Of a DNA stretch of 64,000 bases, positions 13,054 through 25,863 are shown one piece after another. A program made the position numbers and the translations under genes. Below the pieces are notes generated by a model. It ran no database searches, was not told where the DNA came from, and saw nothing but the letters and a program-made list of their open reading frames with translations. The stretch is from Porticoccaceae bacterium (GTDB taxonomy: Bacteria; Pseudomonadota; Gammaproteobacteria; Pseudomonadales; Porticoccaceae). The DNA is taken from the NCBI GenBank assembly GCA_029252555.1, contig JAQXBF010000039.1, positions 1 through 64,000 of the forward strand, in the 5' to 3' direction. Position 1 is the first letter of the stretch, and each line of letters begins with the position of its first letter.

Positions 13054-13674
13054 ATCTGCCTTTACGAAAAATATATCCTGCCGCGCTTTTTAAACTGTGC
13101 CTGTGGTACCAAACCGTTTAACCACCAGCGTCAAAAAGTAGTGCCAATGGCCAAGGGGCTGGTGTTGGAGGTTGGTATTGGTTCTGGCCTCAATATTCCT
13201 TTCTACGACAGCGCCAAAGTTGACAAGGTGTTGGGCCTCGACCCCTCGTCAGAGCTCAATGAATTGGCGGCCAAAGTAGCCTCGACGCACGATGTGCCAG
13301 TAGAGTTTATTTTGTCTGGCGCGGAAGATATTCCCCTGCCAGATCACCATGTCGATACGGTCTTGATCACCTACACCCTATGTACTATTCCGGATGTAGC
13401 TGCGGCCAATAAAGAGATTCTGCGGGTGCTAAAGCCCGGGGGTGTGATGATTTTCTGTGAGCATGGTGTGGCACCAGATGTCAATGTCTCCAAGTGGCAG
13501 AGCCGTATTAACCCCCTGTGGAGTAAATTGGCTGGTGGCTGCAACCTTAACCGCGATATTCCCGCACTAATAACCGATGCAGGCTTTTCCATTGAGTCTA
13601 TGCAGGAAATGTATCTGCCCAGCACACCCAAGATTGCTGGCTACAACTACTGGGGTACAGCCGTCGCCTGGTAA
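13054..13674 (+). CDS. Class I SAM-dependent methyltransferase, probable non-canonical ATC start
   Basis: LVLEVGIGSGLNIPFYD (motif I), HVDTVLITYTLCTIPD. The track starts at the GTG at 13141, but in-frame upstream sequence ICLYEKYILPRFLNCACGTKPFNHQRQKVV looks like the usual N-terminus. AGGAGGT at 13039-13045 lies 8 nt before the ATC at 13054. Confidence 0.8.
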   Translation: MCLYEKYILPRFLNCACGTKPFNHQRQKVVPMAKGLVLEVGIGSGLNIPFYDSAKVDKVLGLDPSSELNELAAKVASTHDVPVEFILSGAEDIPLPDHHVDTVLITYTLCTIPDVAAANKEILRVLKPGGVMIFCEHGVAPDVNVSKWQSRINPLWSKLAGGCNLNRDIPALITDAGFSIESMQEMYLPSTPKIAGYNYWGTAVAW

Positions 13675-15026
13675 GCCTTTACATAGTCGATTTCCAGTCT
13701 AAGAGGAAACGCACTGTCATCAATGGGGCCACCAGCTCGGCCCCAGTTACCACCAATAGCCAGATTGAGAATCACATGAAATGGGTGGTTAAACGGCCAT
13801 GATGCCCAGTCATCAGAGTCCCGATAATAAGTAAAATAAGGGATGTCATCTACCGTGGTAGTCAGGCTGTCTGGAGTCCATTCCAGGCCGTAGCTATAAA
13901 AATTCTTATGCACTGCATCTAGCTTAATACTGCCTTTGCGCTGGCTCCAATGAACCCAGACATAATCTTTGGTATGCACAGTGCCATGGACAATATTTGG
14001 GTCATAACCCACATGTTCCATAATGTCGATTTCACCTGAATTGGGCCAGGCATCGCAGGCACCATTGCCCTGCCAGTCAACCTTGCTGGGACCGCAGTTA
14101 GTGGCATAGCGGTAGGGGTCAGTGGGCATCATCCAGATGGCAGGCCAGGTGCCTTGGCCCTTGGGTAGTCTGGCGCGCACTTCGATTTTTCCGTAGAGAA
14201 TGTCCATTTTACCGGCGCTGTGAATGCGGGCGGAACTATATTTAGCACCGGCATAGTCTTCTTTATGGGCTTCTATCACTAGCAGGCCATGTTCTATACG
14301 GAGGTTTTTGGTTCTTGTGGTATAGGTCTGGTCTTCCGCATTTACCTTAGCCGCAGGCCAGGTCTCGATAGACCAGTTATCAGGATTCACTGAGCCATCT
14401 TTGTCAAATTCATCGGACCAGAATAGCGTCCAGGATTGCCCATTGGATGGCTGCCGCTGGCGCACTTCAAACCCGCTAATAACTGGCAGGCCTTTTAAGC
14501 CTTGCAGGCTAATGTCTAGGCGCCCCTCATTGACAGAGATATTGGGAATAGTTCGCGACAGAGCAGAGCGGATACGACCATCTCGGGAGCCCCGCACATC
14601 GAGGTTATCAATGACCACATTGCCTTGAGCTAGCACATCAAATAGCCTTGCACCCGAGGCTGTGTCCTGTGGCTCCATAAAGTGCAATGTTAGATCATAA
14701 AGTCCATTGCTAAGTGGCTTGGAGAATTTTAGATTGCCCGCGCGATAGCTTTTATACAGGGGCTGAATCTGCGCCCCCTCCACGCTAGAGACAGCACGGC
14801 AGAGCTCACTGGGGATTTTATTGGCTGGTGCGCAGTTATCGGCTTTATACTGCAATGAATCAGTTATTTTCAGGGCCTCGCCACCAATGTTAACCGCCCA
14901 TACAAGCTTATTTTGGGTCTCGGAAAACACTGGGCTGGCGAGTAGTAAAAGGCTTATGCTAAGACTGGCTAAAGTAAGGCGGCTAACGGGTTGAGGTTGC
15001 TTTAACCCTTTGATTATTGCAGTCAT
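13647..15026 (-). CDS. Malectin-like domain + glycoside hydrolase family 16 (probable beta-1,3-glucanase/laminarinase)
   Basis: Catalytic GEIDIMEHVG, WPAIWMMP, FHVILNLAIGGNWGRAGG; N-terminal VWAVNIGGEALKI…YDLTLHFMEP…FDVLAQGNVVIDNLDV is malectin-like. Confidence 0.9.
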   Translation of the reverse strand: MTAIIKGLKQPQPVSRLTLASLSISLLLLASPVFSETQNKLVWAVNIGGEALKITDSLQYKADNCAPANKIPSELCRAVSSVEGAQIQPLYKSYRAGNLKFSKPLSNGLYDLTLHFMEPQDTASGARLFDVLAQGNVVIDNLDVRGSRDGRIRSALSRTIPNISVNEGRLDISLQGLKGLPVISGFEVRQRQPSNGQSWTLFWSDEFDKDGSVNPDNWSIETWPAAKVNAEDQTYTTRTKNLRIEHGLLVIEAHKEDYAGAKYSSARIHSAGKMDILYGKIEVRARLPKGQGTWPAIWMMPTDPYRYATNCGPSKVDWQGNGACDAWPNSGEIDIMEHVGYDPNIVHGTVHTKDYVWVHWSQRKGSIKLDAVHKNFYSYGLEWTPDSLTTTVDDIPYFTYYRDSDDWASWPFNHPFHVILNLAIGGNWGRAGGPIDDSAFPLRLEIDYVKAYQATAVPQ

Positions 15027-15159
15027 AGGCTGAGCTCGGATTCAGATTTTTGTAATGCCTGGGGTACGGGTTGCCGCCAGGCGCCAAACGATGCTGTAAT
15101 TTTACGCTTATTCACAAGGGTAAAACCCCCAAATAACTCATATGGGAGGTAATTTGACG

Positions 15160-15215
15160 CAAATACAGTGTTTAGTCTTCCTCTTTGCCCCTGTTATCGC
15201 ATATTTCTGTATTTG
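15160..15215. promoter_or_regulatory. Dyad CAAATACAG (15160-15168) / CTGTATTTG (15207-15215) in the GH16-TBDR divergent intergenic region
   Basis: Perfect 9-bp inverted repeat seen directly. A partial direct repeat CAAATACAGTGTTTA / CAAATGCTGTGTATTTA is also present. Confidence 0.3.
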
Positions 15216-15340
15216 GTCTCAAATGCTGTGTATTTAACGATCGCGAAGTTGTAACTTATAGGCTTGGATATCTATCTACTCGTTTTACATAAAGGTAGGT
15301 CCACAGTTTTATTATTTTTTTACCTTGGGGGTTTAGCAAC

Positions 15341-18250
15341 ATGTTATTTAAAAAGAAAATGCTTTCTAGCAGCGTGGCTCTGGCTTTAGTTAGCACAGCG
15401 ATACCTGCATATGCTCAAGACGGAGCGCAGATTGAAGAGGTTATCGTTGAAGGCGGTATCCGCGCTAGTTTGAAGCGCGCAATGGACATTAAACGTGACT
15501 CGGCTGGTGTTGCAGATGCAATTTCCGCAGAGGACATGGGTAAATTCCCTGATACTAACCTGGCAGAATCTCTGCAGCGTGTTACTGGTGTATCTATCGA
15601 CCGCCAGCGCGGTGAGGGTAGTCAGGTTACTGTTCGTGGTTTTGGTCCAGAGTACAATCTGGTAACTCTGAATGGCCGTCAGATGCCAACACACAGCGAA
15701 GTTAATCGGTCATTTGATTTCGGTGACTTGGCTTCCGAAGGAATTTCAGCGGTTGTAGTGCACAAGACTGGTAATGCCGCGGCAGCTACCGGTGGTGTGG
15801 GCTCAACAATTAACATTATTACTACCAAGCCTCTAGAAGCTGGTGAGATCATGACCTTCGGTGCGAAGGCGGCTATGGACACCTCTACTGAGACTGGGGA
15901 TGACGTTACTCCTGAGTTCTCAGGTCTCTACTCGAACACATTTGCTGACGATACCGTCGGTATCGCCATTAGCGCCTCTTCACAGAAGCGTAATAACGCT
16001 GTGAACATTGCTAGCATCGGTGGCTGGCATACAAATGCTGGCGACACTGAAGGCACTTGGACTTCTGTTCCAAGCAATGAAGGCCAGGCTAACCGTCCAA
16101 CGGATGCAGCTGGCAACATGTCTATTCCTCAGAGCAATGCTTACAACCTGAGCGAATATGAGTCAGAGCGTATTAACGGTCAGCTAACTATACAGTGGGC
16201 TCCTTCAGACAGCGTAACTGCTACTGTTGATTACACTTACTCAGAGTTTGATCTGGAGCGCACTTACAGCGACCTTTCAGCTTGGTACAACCTGGGGAAC
16301 AATGTCCAGACATCAACCTGGGACGACGGCCTGATTGCTTCACCTATTATGTACAGCGAAGCTAGCCCTAATAGTGACTTCGCTATGGGTATCGGCCACG
16401 ATGGTACTAAAACTGAAAATGATTCTTTTGGCCTGAATCTAGAATGGCAGGTCAACGATCAGCTGAGCCTAACATTCGATTACCATGATTCTGGCTCTGA
16501 TAAGAGAGCAAACAGCCCATTCGGTACCAGTTCTCTGGTAACTATGGCGAGCTTTAACCGTGTTCAGACAACTACCTACTTCGATCAAGATCTGCCTATT
16601 TTGCAGCTTGGCTTGAACTCTGGTGCAGATGGCGCGGACCGACCTCTCTACAAAGACGACATGATCATCACCGGTAGTGTGTTCAGCAACTCCATCTCTG
16701 TGATGGATGTTCAGCAGTCACGTTTCTACGGTACTTTTGATTCAGACGACGCGACCAGTATTGATTTTGGTGTAGAACTTACTGAAGTCACTAACCGTAC
16801 CACGAGTAAGTCGGTTGAGCGTGGTACCTGGGGTGGTATTTCTGATCCCGGTTACATCAGCGACATTCTGGTTAGATCATCAATGGCTAACTCTTTCGAT
16901 CAGGTTTCTGGTGGTAATGACGCAAGACGTCAGTCTGAGTACTTCACTACGACCCTAGAGCAGATTGCCGAGTTGGCTGAGGCGCTGCCATTGGCTTCTA
17001 CTCAGACTGTTGGTGACTGTGGTACAGCATACTGTGCCTCTACTGCTTGGGACACTGACAAGCGCACCACAGAAGAGACTACTGCTGTTTATGTTCAGCT
17101 AAACCACGAGACAGAATTTAACAGCATGCCGATTAGCTTGCGTGCAGGTTTGCGCTACGAGAGCACAGATGTTGTTTCTGCAGCTCGTGCACCTACCTAC
17201 GACGATGTTTACTGGGAAGGTGGTAACGAGTTCTATCTGGTACAGGGTAGTGAAGTTGCATTTGACGACTATGAAGGCACCTACGACCTGATGCTTCCTA
17301 ACCTAGATATTAACGTGGACCTAAGAGATGATCTGGTACTGCGCGCATCGGTTAGTAAAACGGTTACTCGTCCTAGCTATGAAAGTATTAAAGGTGGTGT
17401 AACTGTAGACGGCCAGACTTTCAAGTTCCGTGACGCGCGAGCAGCTGGTGGTGATCCGTCGCTACAGCCTATCGAAGCAGAGAACTTTGATCTGTCTATA
17501 GAGTGGTACTACGGAGATGCAGACTACTTATCCATGGGTTACTATCAGAAAACTGTAGATAACTTTATCGGTAACGGCTTCAAGCAGATGCCATTGTTTG
17601 GTTTGAACGATCCAGCGTCTGGCGGCCTGTATGCAGAAACTGCTGCAGCTGAAGGCCTGGATGCCGGTTCTCAGTACACTGCTATTGGTACTGCAATGTC
17701 TGGCGCATTTGTTGACGGTCGCTACTATGGTACCTCTGCAAATGATCCACTAATGTTCACCGTTGCTGTACCTACTAACGAAAAGACCGCTAAGGTTGAC
17801 GGTATTGAAGTTAACTGGCAGCACAACTTTGGTGAGACTGGTTACGGCTTTATCATCAACGCTACTATCGCCAATGCAGACGTTGCCTTTGACCCTCTAG
17901 CACTGGAAACTCAGTTCGTACTAAACGGCTTGAGTGACTCTGCTAACGTTATCGGTTTCTACGACAAAGGTGGTTTCCAGGCACGATTCGCTTACAACTG
18001 GCGTGACAAGTTCCTGGCCGGTATTGGCCAGGGCCAGGGTTCAACAGCCATTAACCCGACTAATATTCGCGCATACGGCCAGCTCGATCTCAGTGCAAGT
18101 TATGAAGTCAACGACAATCTAACGATTTTCGTGGACGGTATTAACGTAACTGAGTCTGACTTCCGTGTTTATGGCCGTGAAGAGCTTCAGGTGCTGCAGG
18201 CAGGTCAAACTGGTGCACGCTACAATATAGGTGTTCGTTACACTTTCTAA
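15341..18250 (+). CDS. TonB-dependent receptor (carbohydrate-type)
   Basis: Signal peptide; plug SLKRAMDIKRDSAGVADAISAEDMGKFPDTNLAESLQRVTGVSIDRQRGEGSQVTVRGFGPEYNLVTLNGRQMP; C-terminal YNIGVRYTF. Confidence 0.95.
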   Translation: MLFKKKMLSSSVALALVSTAIPAYAQDGAQIEEVIVEGGIRASLKRAMDIKRDSAGVADAISAEDMGKFPDTNLAESLQRVTGVSIDRQRGEGSQVTVRGFGPEYNLVTLNGRQMPTHSEVNRSFDFGDLASEGISAVVVHKTGNAAAATGGVGSTINIITTKPLEAGEIMTFGAKAAMDTSTETGDDVTPEFSGLYSNTFADDTVGIAISASSQKRNNAVNIASIGGWHTNAGDTEGTWTSVPSNEGQANRPTDAAGNMSIPQSNAYNLSEYESERINGQLTIQWAPSDSVTATVDYTYSEFDLERTYSDLSAWYNLGNNVQTSTWDDGLIASPIMYSEASPNSDFAMGIGHDGTKTENDSFGLNLEWQVNDQLSLTFDYHDSGSDKRANSPFGTSSLVTMASFNRVQTTTYFDQDLPILQLGLNSGADGADRPLYKDDMIITGSVFSNSISVMDVQQSRFYGTFDSDDATSIDFGVELTEVTNRTTSKSVERGTWGGISDPGYISDILVRSSMANSFDQVSGGNDARRQSEYFTTTLEQIAELAEALPLASTQTVGDCGTAYCASTAWDTDKRTTEETTAVYVQLNHETEFNSMPISLRAGLRYESTDVVSAARAPTYDDVYWEGGNEFYLVQGSEVAFDDYEGTYDLMLPNLDINVDLRDDLVLRASVSKTVTRPSYESIKGGVTVDGQTFKFRDARAAGGDPSLQPIEAENFDLSIEWYYGDADYLSMGYYQKTVDNFIGNGFKQMPLFGLNDPASGGLYAETAAAEGLDAGSQYTAIGTAMSGAFVDGRYYGTSANDPLMFTVAVPTNEKTAKVDGIEVNWQHNFGETGYGFIINATIANADVAFDPLALETQFVLNGLSDSANVIGFYDKGGFQARFAYNWRDKFLAGIGQGQGSTAINPTNIRAYGQLDLSASYEVNDNLTIFVDGINVTESDFRVYGREELQVLQAGQTGARYNIGVRYTF

Positions 18251-18319
18251 GTTTTAGAATGTGTAACAACTCCTAGATTTGGAGTATTAGTTTGCGCGGT
18301 ACACCGTTGCAAACTTAAC

Positions 18320-18356
18320 AAGAAGCCGCTTAATTATTTAAGCGGCTTCTTTATTT
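18320..18356 (+). terminator. Rho-independent-like terminator after the TonB-dependent receptor
   Basis: Perfect 14-bp stem AAGAAGCCGCTTAA-TTAT-TTAAGCGGCTTCTT followed by a short T-rich tail. Confidence 0.8.
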
Positions 18357-18447
18357 GCAGCGTATATAAAGTAATATGCAGTTACAGTAAAAAACGGCTC
18401 AAGCATTAGAGGCCATATAATCAAGACTATTAAATTAGCTGATACCA

Positions 18448-20046
18448 ATGACTAAAAAAATACATCGAGTTGTTATCGTGGGCGGCGGCAGCGCTGGCTG
18501 GTTGTCTGCAGGGATTATCGCTGCAGAGCACTGTGTCGGCTCCACTTTTACCGCCAGTGGTGAAGGCAATAGCAATGGCTTTCAGTTGGTATTGGTGGAG
18601 TCTCCGGATATTAGTACCATTGGCGTTGGTGAAGGCACCTGGCCATCAATGCGCAATACCTTGAAAAAGATTGGTATCTCCGAGACCGAATTTTTCCGTG
18701 AGTGCAGTGCCAGCTTTAAGCAGGGCACATTGTTTAGTGATTGGTTAGGGGGTGAAACCGGGGCTGCTAATGACTCCTATATTCACCCATTTACTATCCC
18801 GCAAAGCTATGCAGATACCAACTTGGCGCCCCATTGGCAGCTTATTCGAGATCAGGTTAAATTTGCCGATGCGGTTTGCCCACAGAGTTCTCTGGCTCAA
18901 GGTCACCAGGCGCCAAAAAAAATCTCCACCCCTGAATATGCGTTCCAGCTCAATTACGGCTACCACCTAGATGCGGGTAAATTTGCCGAGCTATTGCGTG
19001 CCCACTGCGTGGACAATCTAGGCGTTGTACATATAAAGGCCAATGTGCAGTCGATAAACTCGGCAGATAATGGTGATATCGCCTCAATTATGACCGACAG
19101 TGCCGGTGTGATTGGGGGAGATTTATTTATCGATTGCAGTGGCTCCAAAGCAATGCTCTTGGGTGAGCATTTCCAAGTGCCATTAGTAAGCAAAAAGCAG
19201 TATCTATTTAACAATACCGCCCTGGCCGCTCAGATTCCCTACGGAGCCCCCGAAGACCCCATTCAATCCTTTACCCTTTCGACCGCTCAGAGTGCGGGCT
19301 GGATATGGGATATTGGTTTACCCACGCGCCGTGGCATAGGGCATGTCTATTCCGACGCCCATAATACTGAAGACCATGCTCGGGCAGAATTATTGGCCTA
19401 TATTGAAGCCTCCGCAGGCAAAGAGGCCGCCGAGCAGGCCATGGTCAGGAAAATCCAGTTTGATCCGGGGCACCGAGCAGAGTTCTGGCACAAAAACTGT
19501 GTGGCCATTGGCATGTCTGCGGGCTTTATTGAGCCTCTGGAAGCCTCTGCACTGGTGTTGGTAGAGCTTTCCGCTGCCATGATAGCCGAGCAGCTGCCAG
19601 CAAACCGTGAAACCATGGGTCTGGTGGCCAAGCGTTTTAACGATAAGTTTATATATCGCTGGGATCGCATTATCGATTTCCTCAAGCTCCATTATATTCT
19701 CAGTGAGCGAGATGGGCAGTATTGGCAAGATCATCGCGATCAGGCCAGTATTCCTCAGCATCTTGCAGAGCAAATCAAACTCTGGCGTCACCAGAGCCCT
19801 TGGCACCGAGATACCAACCATGTGGATGAGCTTTTCCCCTCGGCGAGTTTCCAATATGTGCTCTATGGCATGGGTTTCCAAACTGAGCGCAGCACCACCC
19901 AGCGTCGCTCCGAACAGGACGCCTATAAAATGGCGGGTAGCCTGTTTCAAGAGAACGCCAAAAGAACACAGCAGTTACAGGCCTCCTTGCCAACTAACCG
20001 GGAACTGATTAATAAAATACACACCTACGGGCTGCAGAAAATTTAA
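18448..20046 (+). CDS. Flavin-dependent tryptophan halogenase family protein, divergent motif variant
   Basis: VVIVGGGSAGWLSAG, GVGEGTWPSM, SASFKQGTLFSDW, GWIWDIGLPTRRGIGHVYS, FIEPLEASALVLVE. Confidence 0.88.
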   Translation: MTKKIHRVVIVGGGSAGWLSAGIIAAEHCVGSTFTASGEGNSNGFQLVLVESPDISTIGVGEGTWPSMRNTLKKIGISETEFFRECSASFKQGTLFSDWLGGETGAANDSYIHPFTIPQSYADTNLAPHWQLIRDQVKFADAVCPQSSLAQGHQAPKKISTPEYAFQLNYGYHLDAGKFAELLRAHCVDNLGVVHIKANVQSINSADNGDIASIMTDSAGVIGGDLFIDCSGSKAMLLGEHFQVPLVSKKQYLFNNTALAAQIPYGAPEDPIQSFTLSTAQSAGWIWDIGLPTRRGIGHVYSDAHNTEDHARAELLAYIEASAGKEAAEQAMVRKIQFDPGHRAEFWHKNCVAIGMSAGFIEPLEASALVLVELSAAMIAEQLPANRETMGLVAKRFNDKFIYRWDRIIDFLKLHYILSERDGQYWQDHRDQASIPQHLAEQIKLWRHQSPWHRDTNHVDELFPSASFQYVLYGMGFQTERSTTQRRSEQDAYKMAGSLFQENAKRTQQLQASLPTNRELINKIHTYGLQKI

Positions 20047-20085
20047 CTGCCCCTAACGTAAATAAAAGGCATAACTGGAGAAAGC

Positions 20086-20811
20086 ATGAGCAACTACGTA
20101 ATACTGACCAAGGGCGCCCACAAGGATACCAAGGTAATTATTGATCGCGGTGCAGCCTATGGCGATAAAGTTAAAACCGCTCTGACCTTCCCTTTGGAAT
20201 TTCGCAATATCCAGTCTTGCTACCCAATCTTTTTTGTCAAAGATAGCGAGACAGGGCAGTTTTACCCCTCTGCTATTTTTGGTTTTGAGCAAAATGAAAA
20301 TTTATTTCTTAGTGAACAGGGCTGGGATGCGACCTATATTCCCATGATGATCCGTCGCCACCCATTTTTGATTGGTTTCCAGCCGGGCCCGAATGGCGAG
20401 AAGCCTGAAGACAACCCAGTGGTATCCATTGATATGGACAACCCCCGTGTCAACGATCAAAAAGGCGAAGCGCTATTTACGGAAGAGGGCGCTCAGACCC
20501 CATATTTGGAAGGAGCCATCGCAGGCCTGGAAGCGATTCACGCCGGCCATGAGCACAACAAGGTATTTCTGGAAGCCCTGTTAGCCAATGATCTGCTAGA
20601 GCCTTTTACCTTGGACATTACGTTGAATGATGGCTCCAATAACCAGCTGTTGGGTTATTACACTATTAACGAAGAAAAGCTGCGAGATCTGGATGGTGAT
20701 ACTTTAAGCCGGCTAAATAAAGAAGGGTACCTGCAGGCGATTTATATGCAGATGGCCTCCTTCGCTAGAATAAGAACCTTGATCGACAAGAAAAATGCGC
20801 AGCTACCCTAG
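20086..20811 (+). CDS. SapC family protein
   Basis: YPIFFVKDSETGQFYPSAIFGFEQNENLFL…YIPMMIRRHPFLIGF is characteristic of SapC-family proteins. Confidence 0.85.
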   Translation: MSNYVILTKGAHKDTKVIIDRGAAYGDKVKTALTFPLEFRNIQSCYPIFFVKDSETGQFYPSAIFGFEQNENLFLSEQGWDATYIPMMIRRHPFLIGFQPGPNGEKPEDNPVVSIDMDNPRVNDQKGEALFTEEGAQTPYLEGAIAGLEAIHAGHEHNKVFLEALLANDLLEPFTLDITLNDGSNNQLLGYYTINEEKLRDLDGDTLSRLNKEGYLQAIYMQMASFARIRTLIDKKNAQLP

Positions 20812-20823
20812 GGTTAATTTACC

Positions 20824-21837
20824 TTGCTAGGTATTAACCAGCAGGTACAGGAGAGAACGGGTTGTCAGCCGGATTCCATTCCCGCTGAAGTGGTTAACTC
20901 ATCTGTACCATTGGTCTTAAGAGGGCTAGTTGCAGACTGGCCCCTGGTTCAAGAGGCGCAAAAATCAGCGCAAAACAGTATTAGTTATTTAGAGAAGTTT
21001 GATTCTGGCGCGCCACTAACGGCCTTTTTAGGCCCGGCTGAAAACAATGGCCGAGTGTTTTACAACGAGGATTACAGCGGCTTTAATTACGCAACTCATC
21101 GAGTGAATCTGAGTCAGGTATTTGAGCGGCTAACCGAGTACCAGAACAAGCCTGAAGCGCCAATGCTGTATGTGGGCTCCACTATGATCGACCAGTGGTT
21201 GCCGGGTTTTCGTGAGCACAATGATTTGGCACTTAGTGAGCACAACCCAGTGGTGAGTATCTGGTTGGGCAATCGCAGCCGGATTGCTGCTCACTATGAT
21301 TTCCCCACCAATATTGCTTGCTGTGGGGCCGGGCGTCGGAGGGTGACATTATTTCCCCCCGAGCAGCTAGAGAATTTATATGTGGGCCCTCTGGATTTTA
21401 CCCCAGCGGGGCAGCCGATTAGCTTAGTGGATTTTGCTCAACCAGATTACGAGCGCTTCCCCAACTTCCGTGAGGCCCTAAAAGTCGCAATGGTGGTTGA
21501 GCTTGAGCCTGGAGATGCCCTGCTAATCCCAAGCATGTGGTGGCACCATATAGAGGCACTTGAAAGCTTTAATCTGTTGGTGAACTACTGGTGGCGCAAT
21601 AGTCCAGCTTATATGGGACCACCGCTGAATGTATTACAGCACGCGATAATGGGGCTGAGAGACCTGCCCCCAGAGCAGCGAGCCGTGTGGCAGCAGCTGT
21701 TTGATCATTATGTGTTTAACCCTGAGCAGGAGGCGTTTGCGCATATTCCCGAGCAGGTGAGAGGTGTCCTCAACAGTATGGACGAAGCCTCTGCGAAGCA
21801 GATTCGTACAATGTTACTGAATAAATTTAAGCAATAA
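20824..21837 (+). CDS. Cupin-like (JmjC-type) 2-oxoglutarate oxygenase family protein
   Basis: TTG start; IAAHYDFPTNIACCGAGRRRVTLFPPEQLENLYVGP…PGDALLIPSMWWHHIEAL gives an HxD…H metal triad. Confidence 0.85.
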   Translation: MLGINQQVQERTGCQPDSIPAEVVNSSVPLVLRGLVADWPLVQEAQKSAQNSISYLEKFDSGAPLTAFLGPAENNGRVFYNEDYSGFNYATHRVNLSQVFERLTEYQNKPEAPMLYVGSTMIDQWLPGFREHNDLALSEHNPVVSIWLGNRSRIAAHYDFPTNIACCGAGRRRVTLFPPEQLENLYVGPLDFTPAGQPISLVDFAQPDYERFPNFREALKVAMVVELEPGDALLIPSMWWHHIEALESFNLLVNYWWRNSPAYMGPPLNVLQHAIMGLRDLPPEQRAVWQQLFDHYVFNPEQEAFAHIPEQVRGVLNSMDEASAKQIRTMLLNKFKQ

Positions 21838-21858
21838 AAAGCCTTTGGAGAGAATACC

Positions 21859-23349
21859 GTGGCAACGCAAAAAGTAAAAAAGGTAGTGATAGTGGGTGGT
21901 GGAACAGCTGGTTGGATGGCCGCTGCCGCTGTGTCTAAATTAATTGGTAAAAACCTTGATATCTCCTTGGTTGAGTCCGACGAAATTGGCACCGTGGGTG
22001 TGGGCGAAGCAACCATCCCTACTATGATTACCCTCCACCAATTGCTTGGCATTAATGAGCGGGAATTTATGGCCGCAGTGCAAGGCACTTTTAAGTTGGG
22101 TATTGAGTTTGCCAACTGGAAAAATGTTGGTGAGTCTTATCTTCACTCCTTTGGTTTTACTGGCGAAGATTGCTGGGCTGCCGGCTTCCAACACTTTTGG
22201 CTGAAAGGTAAAGAGCGTGGCATCAGCGGAGAATTTGGCGACTACTGCGCCGAACTGCAGGCCGCCAAAGCAAATAAATTTGCCGTGCTTCAGCGCAATG
22301 GTTTGAACTACGCCTACCATATGGATGCCAGTCTCTACGCCAAATACCTGCGAAAACTCGCTGAGAACTTTGGGGCAAACCGAATAGAAGGCAAAATTGT
22401 CGAGGTGGGCACAGACCATCAGTCTGGGGATATTACCCATGTGACTCTAGCCTCGGGACAAAAGGTTGAAGGAGATTTGTTTATCGATTGCAGTGGCTTT
22501 GCAGGCCTACTTATCGACAAGACCTTACATACAGGCTATGACGATTGGTCACACTTTTTGCCCTGTGATAGCGCAGTGGCCGTGCAGACTAAATCCATTA
22601 GTGACCCTATTCCTTACACTAGGGCCACTGCAAGAGAAGCGGGCTGGCAATGGCGTATTCCACTGCAATCGAGAGTGGGAAATGGCATGGTTTTTTGCAG
22701 CAAGTATTTGTCAGACGATGAAGCCATTAAAACCTTACTGAGCAATGTAGAAGGTGAAACACTTACCGAGCCCAGAGTTATTAAATTCCGCACTGGCCAG
22801 CGCCGCCAGCACTGGAATAAAAACTGTATTGCTCTAGGCTTGGCCAGTGGATTTGTTGAGCCCTTGGAATCTACCAGTATTCATATGGTGCAGCGAGGTA
22901 TTATTCGACTGCTTCAGATGTTCCCATTAGATGGTATTCGCAAGCCGGATGTCGAAGAATTCAATACCCAGATGCGCGAAGAGTTTTTGTTTATCCGTGA
23001 CTTTATTGTGTTGCACTATCATGTCACCGAGCGCGAAGACACCAAGTTTTGGCGACACTGCAAAACCATGTCTATCCCAGAATCACTGCAACACCGCATT
23101 GATCTGTTCAAGCAGACCGGCAAAATATTCCAAAAAGCCGGTGACGTGTTTGCTGAGAATTCCTGGACACAGGTAATGTTGGGGCAGGGCTTAATGCCCG
23201 AGCAGTATCACTCAATTGTTAATATGATGTCCGATGAAGAGCTGCAAGGTTTCTTGGAAAATATCAAACACAATGTGGACAGGCTGGTGGAACAGCTGCC
23301 GAGCCACCAGCAGTTTATTTCAAATTACTGCCAAGCAGAGGCGATGTAG
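21859..23349 (+). CDS. Flavin-dependent tryptophan halogenase family protein, canonical motifs
   Basis: GTG start; VVIVGGGTAGWMAAA, GVGEATIPTM, GTFKLGIEFANW, GWQWRIPLQSRVGNGMVF (WxWxIP), FVEPLESTSIHMVQ. Confidence 0.92.
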   Translation: MATQKVKKVVIVGGGTAGWMAAAAVSKLIGKNLDISLVESDEIGTVGVGEATIPTMITLHQLLGINEREFMAAVQGTFKLGIEFANWKNVGESYLHSFGFTGEDCWAAGFQHFWLKGKERGISGEFGDYCAELQAAKANKFAVLQRNGLNYAYHMDASLYAKYLRKLAENFGANRIEGKIVEVGTDHQSGDITHVTLASGQKVEGDLFIDCSGFAGLLIDKTLHTGYDDWSHFLPCDSAVAVQTKSISDPIPYTRATAREAGWQWRIPLQSRVGNGMVFCSKYLSDDEAIKTLLSNVEGETLTEPRVIKFRTGQRRQHWNKNCIALGLASGFVEPLESTSIHMVQRGIIRLLQMFPLDGIRKPDVEEFNTQMREEFLFIRDFIVLHYHVTEREDTKFWRHCKTMSIPESLQHRIDLFKQTGKIFQKAGDVFAENSWTQVMLGQGLMPEQYHSIVNMMSDEELQGFLENIKHNVDRLVEQLPSHQQFISNYCQAEAM

Positions 23350-23462
23350 CCTCTGCCGTTATCCGTTGCATGCTAAGCGTAGCGAAATTTTGTTAATATA
23401 ACTGCACATAAAAACAGTAATCTTGTAGCCTCCCATGTTCACTTATTAATGGATTAATGATG

Positions 23463-23840
23463 ATGATTGGATATACAACCTTAGGCACCAACGATTTAGT
23501 ATAAAGCGGTAAATTCTATGATGCTCTTTTTGCAGAGATTGGCGCGACGAGAACAATGGATTTTGAGAAGTTTATAGTTTGGTCTGTCGGGCCAGGCACT
23601 GCTGAGTTTACTATGATCAAACCATTTGATGGCCAACCTGCAATCTCAGGTAATGGCGCTATGATTGGGCTTGGTTGCGATAGTCCAGCACAGGTGGACT
23701 CATTGCATAGTAAAGCTATGGAACTGAGTGTGGTAGATGAGGGTGCTCCGGGGCCTAGAAGTAGTGGGTTTTATGCTGGGTATTTTCGTGACCTTGATGG
23801 CAATAAACTTAATTGTTTTTGTTTACAAGCTGATGTTTAG
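23463..23840 (+). pseudogene. VOC/glyoxalase family protein interrupted by an in-frame TAA
   Basis: Manual translation from the ATG at 23463: MIGYTTLGTNDLV*SGKFYDALFAEIGATRTMDFEKFIVWSVGPGTAEFTMIKPFDG…GFYAGYFRDLDGNKLNCFC. TAA at 23502-23504; the rest is a coherent VOC domain in the same frame. Confidence 0.8.
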
Positions 23841-23938
23841 GAAACCGCTTTTTGGCTGTGTTAAGGGCTGGGAGTTTTTTTCGGGTTCCATGGCATGGTT
23901 AGGATGACCTTGGACTGGTTAAGCTGATATCGACATAG

Positions 23939-24937
23939 TTACGTCAACTGCTCCAGTAAAAACTGTTTCACCTGAGCCTGCTGTTCCGGGCTCAGGCTAG
24001 TCACCAAGTCCTTAAGCTCAGCAGGCATGTCCTGCCCGGGCTCACCATTAGTTTTAAACACATAGTAATCAAAGAAATGCCGCCAGGCTTCGCGCTTCTC
24101 TGGGCTTAAATTAGCAATGCTCATCATGCTGTGCATCAGGCTATCATTCGGAGATATACCGGTATCGGTCATACCACCCCACCAATAGTTAATCAGCACG
24201 TTCACCACATGCAGTGATTCAACCCCATGCCACCAAAGCGCGGGAATATAGATACCATCCCCAGGCTCAAGGGTAGCTTCCTGAGCAGTTTTTTCAGCGT
24301 CCGTAAAATTGGGATACTGGCCTAAATCCGGTTGGTTGGTATCAACCATACTTACCGGCACACCGCCTGGTGTGACCAGCATGGGCCCTGGATATAAATT
24401 ATTGATTTGCTCTGGCGGGAACAGGGTGAATTTTCGTTGTCCCGCCACCACGCAGGCAAGGTTGTCGTGGATATCATAATGGGGTGCCACGGTGGCACGA
24501 TTGCCCAGCCACATGGTGGGGCCGACGGATTTATCCAGCAATGGCTGTTGGTTTTGTTGCTCAAAACCTGGCATAACCAAATCGACTGGTATGGCTTGCA
24601 GAGCTATAACATGAGGGTTTGGATCCTGCTGTATGGCAAGCAGTCGATCGAGGCCAATACCCATTGTGACCTGAGCCTTTTGAAAATTTAATGCGGTCAG
24701 TCCCGGCTGATAGAAGAAGCGGCCTTTAATACTGGGGTCGCCTACCAGTGCCGACACTACCTTTTCGCTATCATGTTTTTTCAGGTAGTCGACTATGGCT
24801 TCGGGGGACTGAGCGCCTGCTTTTACCGCGGGCCAATGGCCTACGATTGATTTGATATGGGCAGGTTGGTTTAGGGGGATTATCTCCCCGTGGAACTGAT
24901 CATAATTGACCTTTTCCCAGACTCGAATTACCTGCAC
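23939..24937 (-). CDS. Cupin-like (JmjC-type) 2-oxoglutarate oxygenase family protein, paralogue of 20824-21837
   Basis: VAPHYDIHDNLACVVAGQRKFTLFPPEQINNLYPGP…PGDGIYIPALWWHGVESL; same architecture as the + strand copy. Confidence 0.88.
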   Translation of the reverse strand: MQVIRVWEKVNYDQFHGEIIPLNQPAHIKSIVGHWPAVKAGAQSPEAIVDYLKKHDSEKVVSALVGDPSIKGRFFYQPGLTALNFQKAQVTMGIGLDRLLAIQQDPNPHVIALQAIPVDLVMPGFEQQNQQPLLDKSVGPTMWLGNRATVAPHYDIHDNLACVVAGQRKFTLFPPEQINNLYPGPMLVTPGGVPVSMVDTNQPDLGQYPNFTDAEKTAQEATLEPGDGIYIPALWWHGVESLHVVNVLINYWWGGMTDTGISPNDSLMHSMMSIANLSPEKREAWRHFFDYYVFKTNGEPGQDMPAELKDLVTSLSPEQQAQVKQFLLEQLT

Positions 24938-25028: not shown

Positions 25029-25396
25029 CTAGGTCTCAATACCTAATAGGATAAAAGGAACAGCGGGACTAGCTCTGCCTTGTCTTAGTATATGAGTTAG
25101 CGTTCGTTCATAGTAGCCCGGTCCGGATGACATTTGAGAGTTCAGTAGCTTTGTCGGCACAATTTCTATACCGAGATCGATATCTTTCCGTAAGTAAAAA
25201 CCTAAGTGTGTTACAAATAAATCAAACTCAATAAAAGCATATTTGCCAAATTGTATTTCTACTGCAGCCCCATTTTTAACATAATCTGTCTGGTGAAATG
25301 AGGATATAGGCGTTTCTCCAGCTTTCAATATCCTTTTTTCTGCTCAGAGGCATCTAGGTTTGCAATGTCTCTTGTAAGAGGTTCATTGGCCGTCAC
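25029..25396 (-). pseudogene. Truncated, frameshifted BglII-like type II restriction endonuclease
   Basis: FHQTDYVKNGAAVEIQFGKYAFIEFDLF…MSSGPGYYERTLTHILRQGRASPAVPFILLGIET resembles the BglII catalytic core (VEVQFSNYPF … VPIRLVGL). The upstream segment VTANEPLTRDIANLDASEQKK is in another frame and rejoins if the A6 run is A7. Confidence 0.7.
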
Positions 25397-25863
25397 AAAA
25401 TAATTGTATCTTTTACTCTAGGCACATTCTCCATGGCCCAGTGCTTAGGTTTTAGGTATTGAATAATTGATAAAAATTTATGTATATCAACCAGTCCGTC
25501 TTCAATATTCCCTTTGCCACCTCGATTGGCGTACGAGAACTGGATGCAAGGAGGGCTTCCGACCACAATATCTACCGACCCAGGCGCAGGTAAATCCGCT
25601 AAGTTTATTTCCCGGATATTCGTTTCACGGTTCTTTGTGCCGAAGTTAATGTTATGGGTTAGATTAGATTCAGGATTCCATTCAAATGAAGATAAGTGGT
25701 GGAGACCTGCCAGTTTCATGCCTAGTATCCAACCACCTATTCCTGAGTATAAGTCTATACAGTTCATAAAAAATGGCTTGTGCTCTATGATTTTTCTAGA
25801 GATAAATTGTATGAGAAATTGTTTGTTTTTGATACTAAAACAGTTTGGCAAAAGGTTATCCAT
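25393..25863 (-). pseudogene. DNA (cytosine-5-) methyltransferase, C-terminally truncated
   Basis: CIDLYSGIGGW (motif I), VGSPPCIQFS (motif IV region), WAMENVP (motif VI). Stops right after, without target recognition domain or motifs IX-X. Good SD (AGGAGAGG) before ATG at 25863. Confidence 0.8.

Follow-up and report, generated by a model that had tools for sequence, protein, structure and literature searches.

A conserved set of halogenase, SapC and oxygenase genes on a laminarin-type uptake locus of a Porticoccaceae bacterium

Between positions 13,647 and 24,937 of a 64,000-nucleotide stretch of DNA from a marine, SAR92-type Porticoccaceae bacterium (contig JAQXBF010000039.1 of assembly GCA_029252555.1, positions 1 to 64,000; hereafter the window), genes for two flavin-dependent halogenases (FDH1 and FDH2), a SapC family protein and two cupin oxygenases (Cup1 and Cup2) lie beside genes for a TonB-dependent receptor and a secreted glucanase. 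We find that these genes form a true accessory set, conserved but unexplained in function, carried on a laminarin-type uptake locus. The explanation we favor, to which we assign a probability of about 0.4 as a whole, is that the set serves for oxidative tailoring in the cytoplasm and acts on one polypeptide common to such loci. We infer catalysis, a protein target and a role for SapC from the gene content, gene order, co-occurrence, motif intactness and sugar-independence described below.

Gene families were assigned with curated Pfam and NCBIfam models, and each gene scores far over the respective cut-off. An earlier sequence-only reading of this DNA had proposed seven open reading frames (ORFs) for the locus; their places and orientations were all borne out, and the models matched the families. 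The features are as follows.

13647-15026, - strand: secreted malectin + GH16 beta-1,3-glucanase of the laminarinase type (Pfam GH16 2.9e-21, Malectin 2.2e-19)
15341-18250, + strand: TonB-dependent receptor of the TIGR01782 (Xanthomonas-Caulobacter) type, putative importer of glucan oligosaccharides (NCBIfam 6.5e-182)
18320-18351: hairpin between the receptor gene and the downstream set, probable terminator or attenuator (45-nt fold, -21.8 kcal/mol)
18448-20046, + strand: flavin-dependent halogenase FDH1, of the PDB 2pyx group (PF04820 2.1e-108; 2pyx 3.5e-179)
20086-20811, + strand: SapC family protein, module type (PF07277 7.1e-70)
20824-21837, + strand: Cup1, FIH-like Cupin_8/JmjC 2-oxoglutarate oxygenase (PF13621 4.3e-72; factor inhibiting HIF, FIH, 3.7e-22)
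21859-23349, + strand: flavin-dependent halogenase FDH2, close to the brominase Xcc4156 (PF04820 7.1e-192; 6y1w 2e-201)
23939-24937, - strand, convergent: Cup2, second Cupin_8/JmjC oxygenase, FIH/JMJD-like (PF13621 3.5e-62; FIH 3.8e-17, JMJD7 8e-15)

The strongest evidence for a conserved set comes from a class-wide survey of 369 genomes, 53 of which encode SapC, with 71 SapC matches including that of the window; the other 70 loci were read. A halogenase gene lies within 10 kb of SapC at 14 of these 70 loci, compared with the ~0.25 that gene counts and genome sizes predict (Poisson P ~4e-20). The excess is very large, albeit a rough figure: relatedness is ignored in the calculation, and for halogenases and receptors only the few best candidates of each genome were scored. 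At the level of whole genomes, the co-occurrence of SapC and halogenase has P = 1.3e-6. Among all loci read, a receptor of this family stands beside SapC in 30 of the 33 loci that carry both SapC and a halogenase (two of the three without one sit at contig ends), and in 0 of the 67 SapC loci that lack a halogenase. Gene order is kept, with gaps mostly below ~70 bp, across families and into the Alphaproteobacteria, which were represented by annotated plasmid loci. The absence of conserved co-occurrence had been named in advance as grounds for discarding the idea of a joint system; what was found is co-occurrence that is strong, ordered and taxonomically broad.

The locus in the window has gaps of 12-39 bp within the + strand set, preceded by 197 bp between the receptor and FDH1. 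Across the host assembly (2.3 Mb in 40 contigs), TIGR01782 receptors over cut-off, halogenases, SapC and Cupin_8 genes occur solely at 13647-24937. The nearest readable relatives are two Porticoccaceae/SAR92 assemblies (L045 and L046 in our numbering of loci) whose SapC proteins are 88-90% identical to that of the window and whose gene order is the same: GH16 (-), receptor (+), FDH1, SapC, Cup1 and FDH2 (all +), and Cup2 (-). Cup2 occupies the same convergent place in L045-L049, L076-L078 and L082. Smaller sets also occur, including FDH1 with SapC alone, SapC with Cup1 and FDH2 alone, and loci lacking Cup1 (L047 and L049).

Several observations identify the host locus as one for laminarin-type uptake. 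The receptor scores 607 bits with TIGR01782 compared with a cut-off of 310, and both its plug and its barrel are matched in Pfam. The glucanase ORF carries the GH16 catalytic motif ExDxxE as EIDIME, and its nearest solved structure is the laminarinase 3iln (1.2e-64). Orthologues of this enzyme scoring 773-828 bits adjoin the same set in L045, L046, L076, L077, L078 and L082, and this association extends to other families. The pairing of receptor and carbohydrate-active enzyme that characterizes a polysaccharide or carbohydrate utilization locus (PUL/CUT) is present, with GH16 divergent to the receptor in the window and its relatives. TonB-linked carbohydrate utilization loci of Proteobacteria, among them the North Sea SAR92 laminarin loci, similarly place a receptor beside a GH16 enzyme of the laminarinase type, and 6 of 22 SAR92 species have been reported to carry clusters of the laminarin type (PMC8371827). 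However, papers on the SAR92 (PMC8371827) and other TonB-linked loci do not mention halogenases or SapC, and the window has no adjacent SusD, GH3 or regulator gene. Among its annotated neighbors there is neither a sugar regulator nor an inner-membrane sugar transporter, both of which relatives carry (AraC with MFS, or LacI with MFS).

The accessory set is found with more than one sugar. Full sets adjoin beta-1,3-glucan genes (GH16, GH3, GH81+CBM56 and GH94), and also AraC, MFS and Entner-Doudoroff (glucose catabolism) genes. Shorter sets are found beside genes for chitin (GH18 and NagA in L096), alpha-galactosides (GH36 in L118; alpha- and beta-galactosidase in L193 and L194) and arabinan/xylan (GH43 and an arabinofuranosidase domain in L121), and beside GH95 plus GH31 or GH3 in L195 and L196. 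Because the set stays while the sugars differ, it follows the receptor class rather than the sugar. A sugar ligand is therefore an unlikely substrate, and the pattern instead points to something that these loci have in common.

The enzymes themselves look active, judging from their intact motifs. FDH1 carries the FAD motif GGGSAGW, the lysine motif SFKQG, WIWDI and GFIEPLE, and FDH2 carries the lysine motif TFKLG, WQWRI and GFVEPLE; both halogenases, like most of their relatives, retain the FAD, lysine, WxWxI and glutamate motifs. All four features expected of a halogenase (FAD motif, catalytic Lys region, WxWxI(P) and catalytic Glu region; PF04820 variant A) are present in FDH2, which reads WQWRIP, and FDH1 has them except for the proline (WIWDIG). 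FDH1 groups with 2pyx, an unpublished structure that we take to be from Shewanella. FDH2 aligns with Xcc4156 of Xanthomonas campestris (6y1w) over 490 residues with 57% identity and a single 1-residue gap, and it is near-colinear with this protein; compared with PyrH, it is shorter across 98-140. Xcc4156 was reported to lack the closed lid and the Trp backbone-binding loops of free-tryptophan halogenases, to have an open active site into which peptides may fit, and to brominate model substrates only, with no use of free Trp and no native substrate known as of 2020 (PMC7336383). FDH1 and FDH2 would be open-pocket flavin halogenases, and probably brominases. BrvH (Brevundimonas/Botany Bay metagenome; 6frl) is an indole brominase like Xcc4156, and its gene also adjoins a second halogenase gene, as in the window. 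For BrvH, too, published work describes an active site open enough that peptides may be accepted, and no use of free Trp (PMC5945002). The publications on Xcc4156 and BrvH mention neither TonB nor SapC, and that on BrvH mentions no cupins. The survey ties the Xcc4156/BrvH group of brominases to fixed partners: the receptor, SapC and 2-oxoglutarate oxygenases.

Both cupins carry the HxD...H iron ligands as HYD...WWH in a JmjC fold, and for both the best-matching solved relatives are FIH and JMJD5/JMJD7, with which they share these ligands; the match covers mainly the JmjC core. The reaction catalyzed by FIH, JMJD5 and JMJD7 is hydroxylation of side chains in proteins; for the window cupins, no substrate of the ankyrin or HIF-like kind is known. 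Duplication at this locus, which the sequence-only reading had proposed for both enzyme types, does not hold: FDH1 and FDH2 are 30% identical and Cup1 and Cup2 35% identical, and they represent old paralogues with orthologues of each in other families. At four loci, a DUF6445 (PF20043) gene follows FDH2 (L050:9020-9748, L052:13286-14008, L170:12900-13601 and L185:11675-12391). Its product has conserved HFD...H...R residues (an HxD...H...R motif), and DUF6445 may represent a further 2-oxoglutarate/Fe(II) oxygenase family linked to these loci.

SapC is matched over its full length (PF07277 profile positions 1-220 of 220, 235 bits). Its AlphaFold2 model, with a predicted local distance difference test (pLDDT) score of 88.5 and a predicted template modeling (pTM) score of 0.80, found no fold relative in the PDB at E <= 0.001, and a sequence search for solved relatives found none. 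In a SapC tree, most proteins from sets such as that of the window (module SapC) form a clade of 28 (support 0.91) that includes the window protein and stands apart from a clade of 57 others. SapC of the module clades was never seen without a halogenase, except at L112. The module and non-module lineages share the near-invariant residues H12, E38, N72, W80, P86 and S225, which argues for a conserved function shared by the family. Non-module SapC loci (L054-L123 and L165-L179) have a frame of more than 1800 residues in 27 of 67 cases, within the stretch read, and genes for two-partner or type I secretion (ShlB/FhaC or OEP/HlyD) in four of the four neighborhoods tested. SapC loci beside giant secreted proteins never adjoin TIGR01782-type receptors or halogenases. 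The SapC proteins of these loci belong to the same Pfam family and share the near-invariant residues, but they fall mostly in clades separate from module SapC, and this separation argues against the surface modification system that had been suggested for the window. Comparison of two loci from one genus, L112 and L115, shows the L112 SapC gene flanked by the same ADH-like gene but lacking the TonB receptor and FDH1, which suggests that receptor and FDH1 are gained or lost as a pair.

From these data we propose the following scheme. The GH16 enzyme would cut beta-1,3-glucan (laminarin) outside the cell, and the TIGR01782 receptor would import the resulting oligosaccharides. FDH1, SapC, Cup1 and FDH2, together with the convergent Cup2, would form an accessory oxidative tailoring set tied to the receptor class, in which a single polypeptide shared by these loci is modified in the cytoplasm by the halogenases and FIH-like oxygenases, and SapC serves as a non-catalytic factor that presents it. 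The target would most likely be the receptor before its export, or a partner made with the receptor, and the hairpin after the receptor gene may hold the enzymes below the amount of receptor. A more elaborate version appears quite unlikely: that the outer-membrane sugar receptor or its partner, while still cytoplasmic, is passed by SapC to an FIH-like hydroxylase and a brominase of peptidyl-Trp, that brominated and hydroxylated receptors are then exported, and that SapC is a general adaptor which in its other lineage acts on giant secreted proteins.

The receptor was compared for a residue that might be a dedicated modification site. The most discriminating column in an alignment of 61 receptors is W315, found in 28 of 30 receptors linked to SapC and 0 of 31 others. 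It is the lone conserved residue in a variable loop, and a low-confidence receptor model puts it where a long loop begins between two predicted strands. We reject W315 as the modification site, since it is kept both in a nested receptor clade without local SapC or halogenase genes and in a genome that lacks SapC; it marks a clade. The subset with Cup1 and FDH2 is followed by H382 and W887, but only as a clade split, and these two were also rejected. No other dedicated residue emerged, because almost all of the 91 columns conserved in at least 90% of SapC-linked receptors are kept in the nested clade, where changes are mostly conservative (D65E, I86V, V96I, F127L and R882K), with A884T and N886A in addition.

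The details of this comparison weigh against the explanation we favor. The receptor structure model is poor (pLDDT 41) and places W315 no more closely than in its long loop. Plasmid-borne Pseudoalteromonas receptors beside GH16 but without SapC or halogenase genes (L187, L189 and L190) keep the aligned tryptophan, orthologues L197 and L199-L202 keep the W315 equivalent, and the receptor of genome G733, which is rated 100% complete and gave no match to SapC, has the same GWGIW. Comparison of 37 SapC-linked receptors with the nested clade yielded no convincing dedicated residue. The nested clade represents a natural contrast in which the set has been lost, and it shows that such receptors can work without the set. 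The receptor stays a candidate target, one that the residue-level comparison does not back.

This Alteromonadaceae clade (L187, L189, L190, L197-L202 and G733) is nested among the module receptors, and those of its loci read on plasmids contain neither SapC nor a halogenase. Elsewhere, at L127, L128 and L131-L137, related TonB receptors are accompanied by one to three halogenase genes and no SapC, some of them beside GH97, GH1 or sugar-catabolism genes. Natural contrasts are thus provided by receptors with the full set, with a halogenase only and with none.

Other explanations for the set have to be weighed. It could make a small brominated or hydroxylated indole-type metabolite, whose production (as a signal, a redox carrier or a deterrent) is induced together with sugar uptake, in which case no protein is modified. 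BrvH and Xcc4156, both reported with unknown native substrates, brominate free indole and indole derivatives in vitro (PMC5945002, PMC7336383), and halogenase-receptor loci without SapC exist (L127-L137). However, the set has no recurring gene for biosynthesis or efflux, SapC would have no role, and the indole activity of BrvH was low (2.5 mU/mg), its authors doubting indole as the natural substrate (PMC5945002). We consider this route unlikely. An improbable variant of protein modification treats the halogenase-like proteins as Trp-directed monooxygenases, as annotated for QhpG and the LodB/GoxB maturases of enzyme cofactors; the QhpG, GoxB and LodB models are detectable, albeit far below cut-off, and FDH1 has WIWDIG instead of the classical WxWxIP, but FDH2 is 57% identical to a demonstrated brominase and the catalytic Lys and Glu regions are intact.

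It is likewise improbable that the genes are simply co-inherited, co-regulated neighbors without joint biochemistry. The variable subsets noted above would fit such an arrangement, but the conserved order and short gaps that extend into Alphaproteobacteria do not, nor does the regular presence of a halogenase neighbor beside SapC of the module clades, L112 apart. The least credible proposal, which we regard as very improbable, is one half of that originally made for this DNA, successive halogenation and hydroxylation of one ligand or protein: that the target is the ligand, meaning the imported carbohydrate or its decorations. A protein, the other option given there, is what we favor. Although every set lies within a carbohydrate locus or close to one, the sugars vary from beta-1,3-glucan to chitin, alpha-galactoside and arabinan/xylan, and halogenases of the FDH1/FDH2 type require an electron-rich aromatic ring. 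Moreover, reading of the N-termini by eye showed signal sequences in the GH16 (hydrophobic) and receptor ORFs and none in the halogenases, SapC or the cupins. A ribosomally synthesized and post-translationally modified peptide (RiPP) was also considered as a target, and was rejected because the receptor-FDH1 gaps of the window and five relatives contain no conserved small ORF. The data thus speak against some simple answers (a dedicated receptor tryptophan, a RiPP precursor encoded in the gap, or the sugar ligand), and the target of the enzymes can now be sought directly, as the set recurs with the same receptor type whatever the sugar.

Gene sets of this kind have been noted in Xanthomonas sugar regulons, and so we claim neither the gene families nor their association as new. 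The present analysis adds the anatomy of the set, its sugar-independence and its natural contrasts. Among the papers available for searching, we found none combining the terms tryptophan halogenase, SapC and TonB-dependent, and related searches yielded nothing on the set. SAR92 and Alteromonadaceae are active in the turnover of algal-bloom carbon, and a step of laminarin uptake that depends on bromide and oxygen, if true, would therefore be ecologically relevant.

The hairpin at 18320-18351 reads AAGAAGCCGCTTAA-TTAT-TTAAGCGGCTTCTT and is followed by TATTT on the + strand. A simple terminator scan flagged it on the - strand only, and found fewer terminator-like sites overall than in shuffled sequences. 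A G+C-rich hairpin with a T-run is present in the gap between receptor and set at ~17 of the 28 loci where the gap is long enough to hold one (counted without a shuffled control), and these hairpins differ in sequence between lineages. The hairpin of the window is credible because relatives carry different hairpins at the same place, in agreement with the separate terminator originally read between the receptor and the halogenase set. Such an element fits separate dosage, with much receptor and little enzyme.

Two minor features were observed near Cup2. The 589-bp gap preceding this gene holds a VOC/glyoxalase-like frame with one in-frame stop (23450-23860), a family assigned by eye, the tested fragment having no Pfam match at E 0.01; the corresponding gap is 0-96 bp in L045-L049, and the VOC-like frame is not found in relatives. 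Beyond Cup2, a C5 cytosine DNA methylase frame at 25393-25863 (-) covers model positions 1-116 of 324 and is thus truncated.

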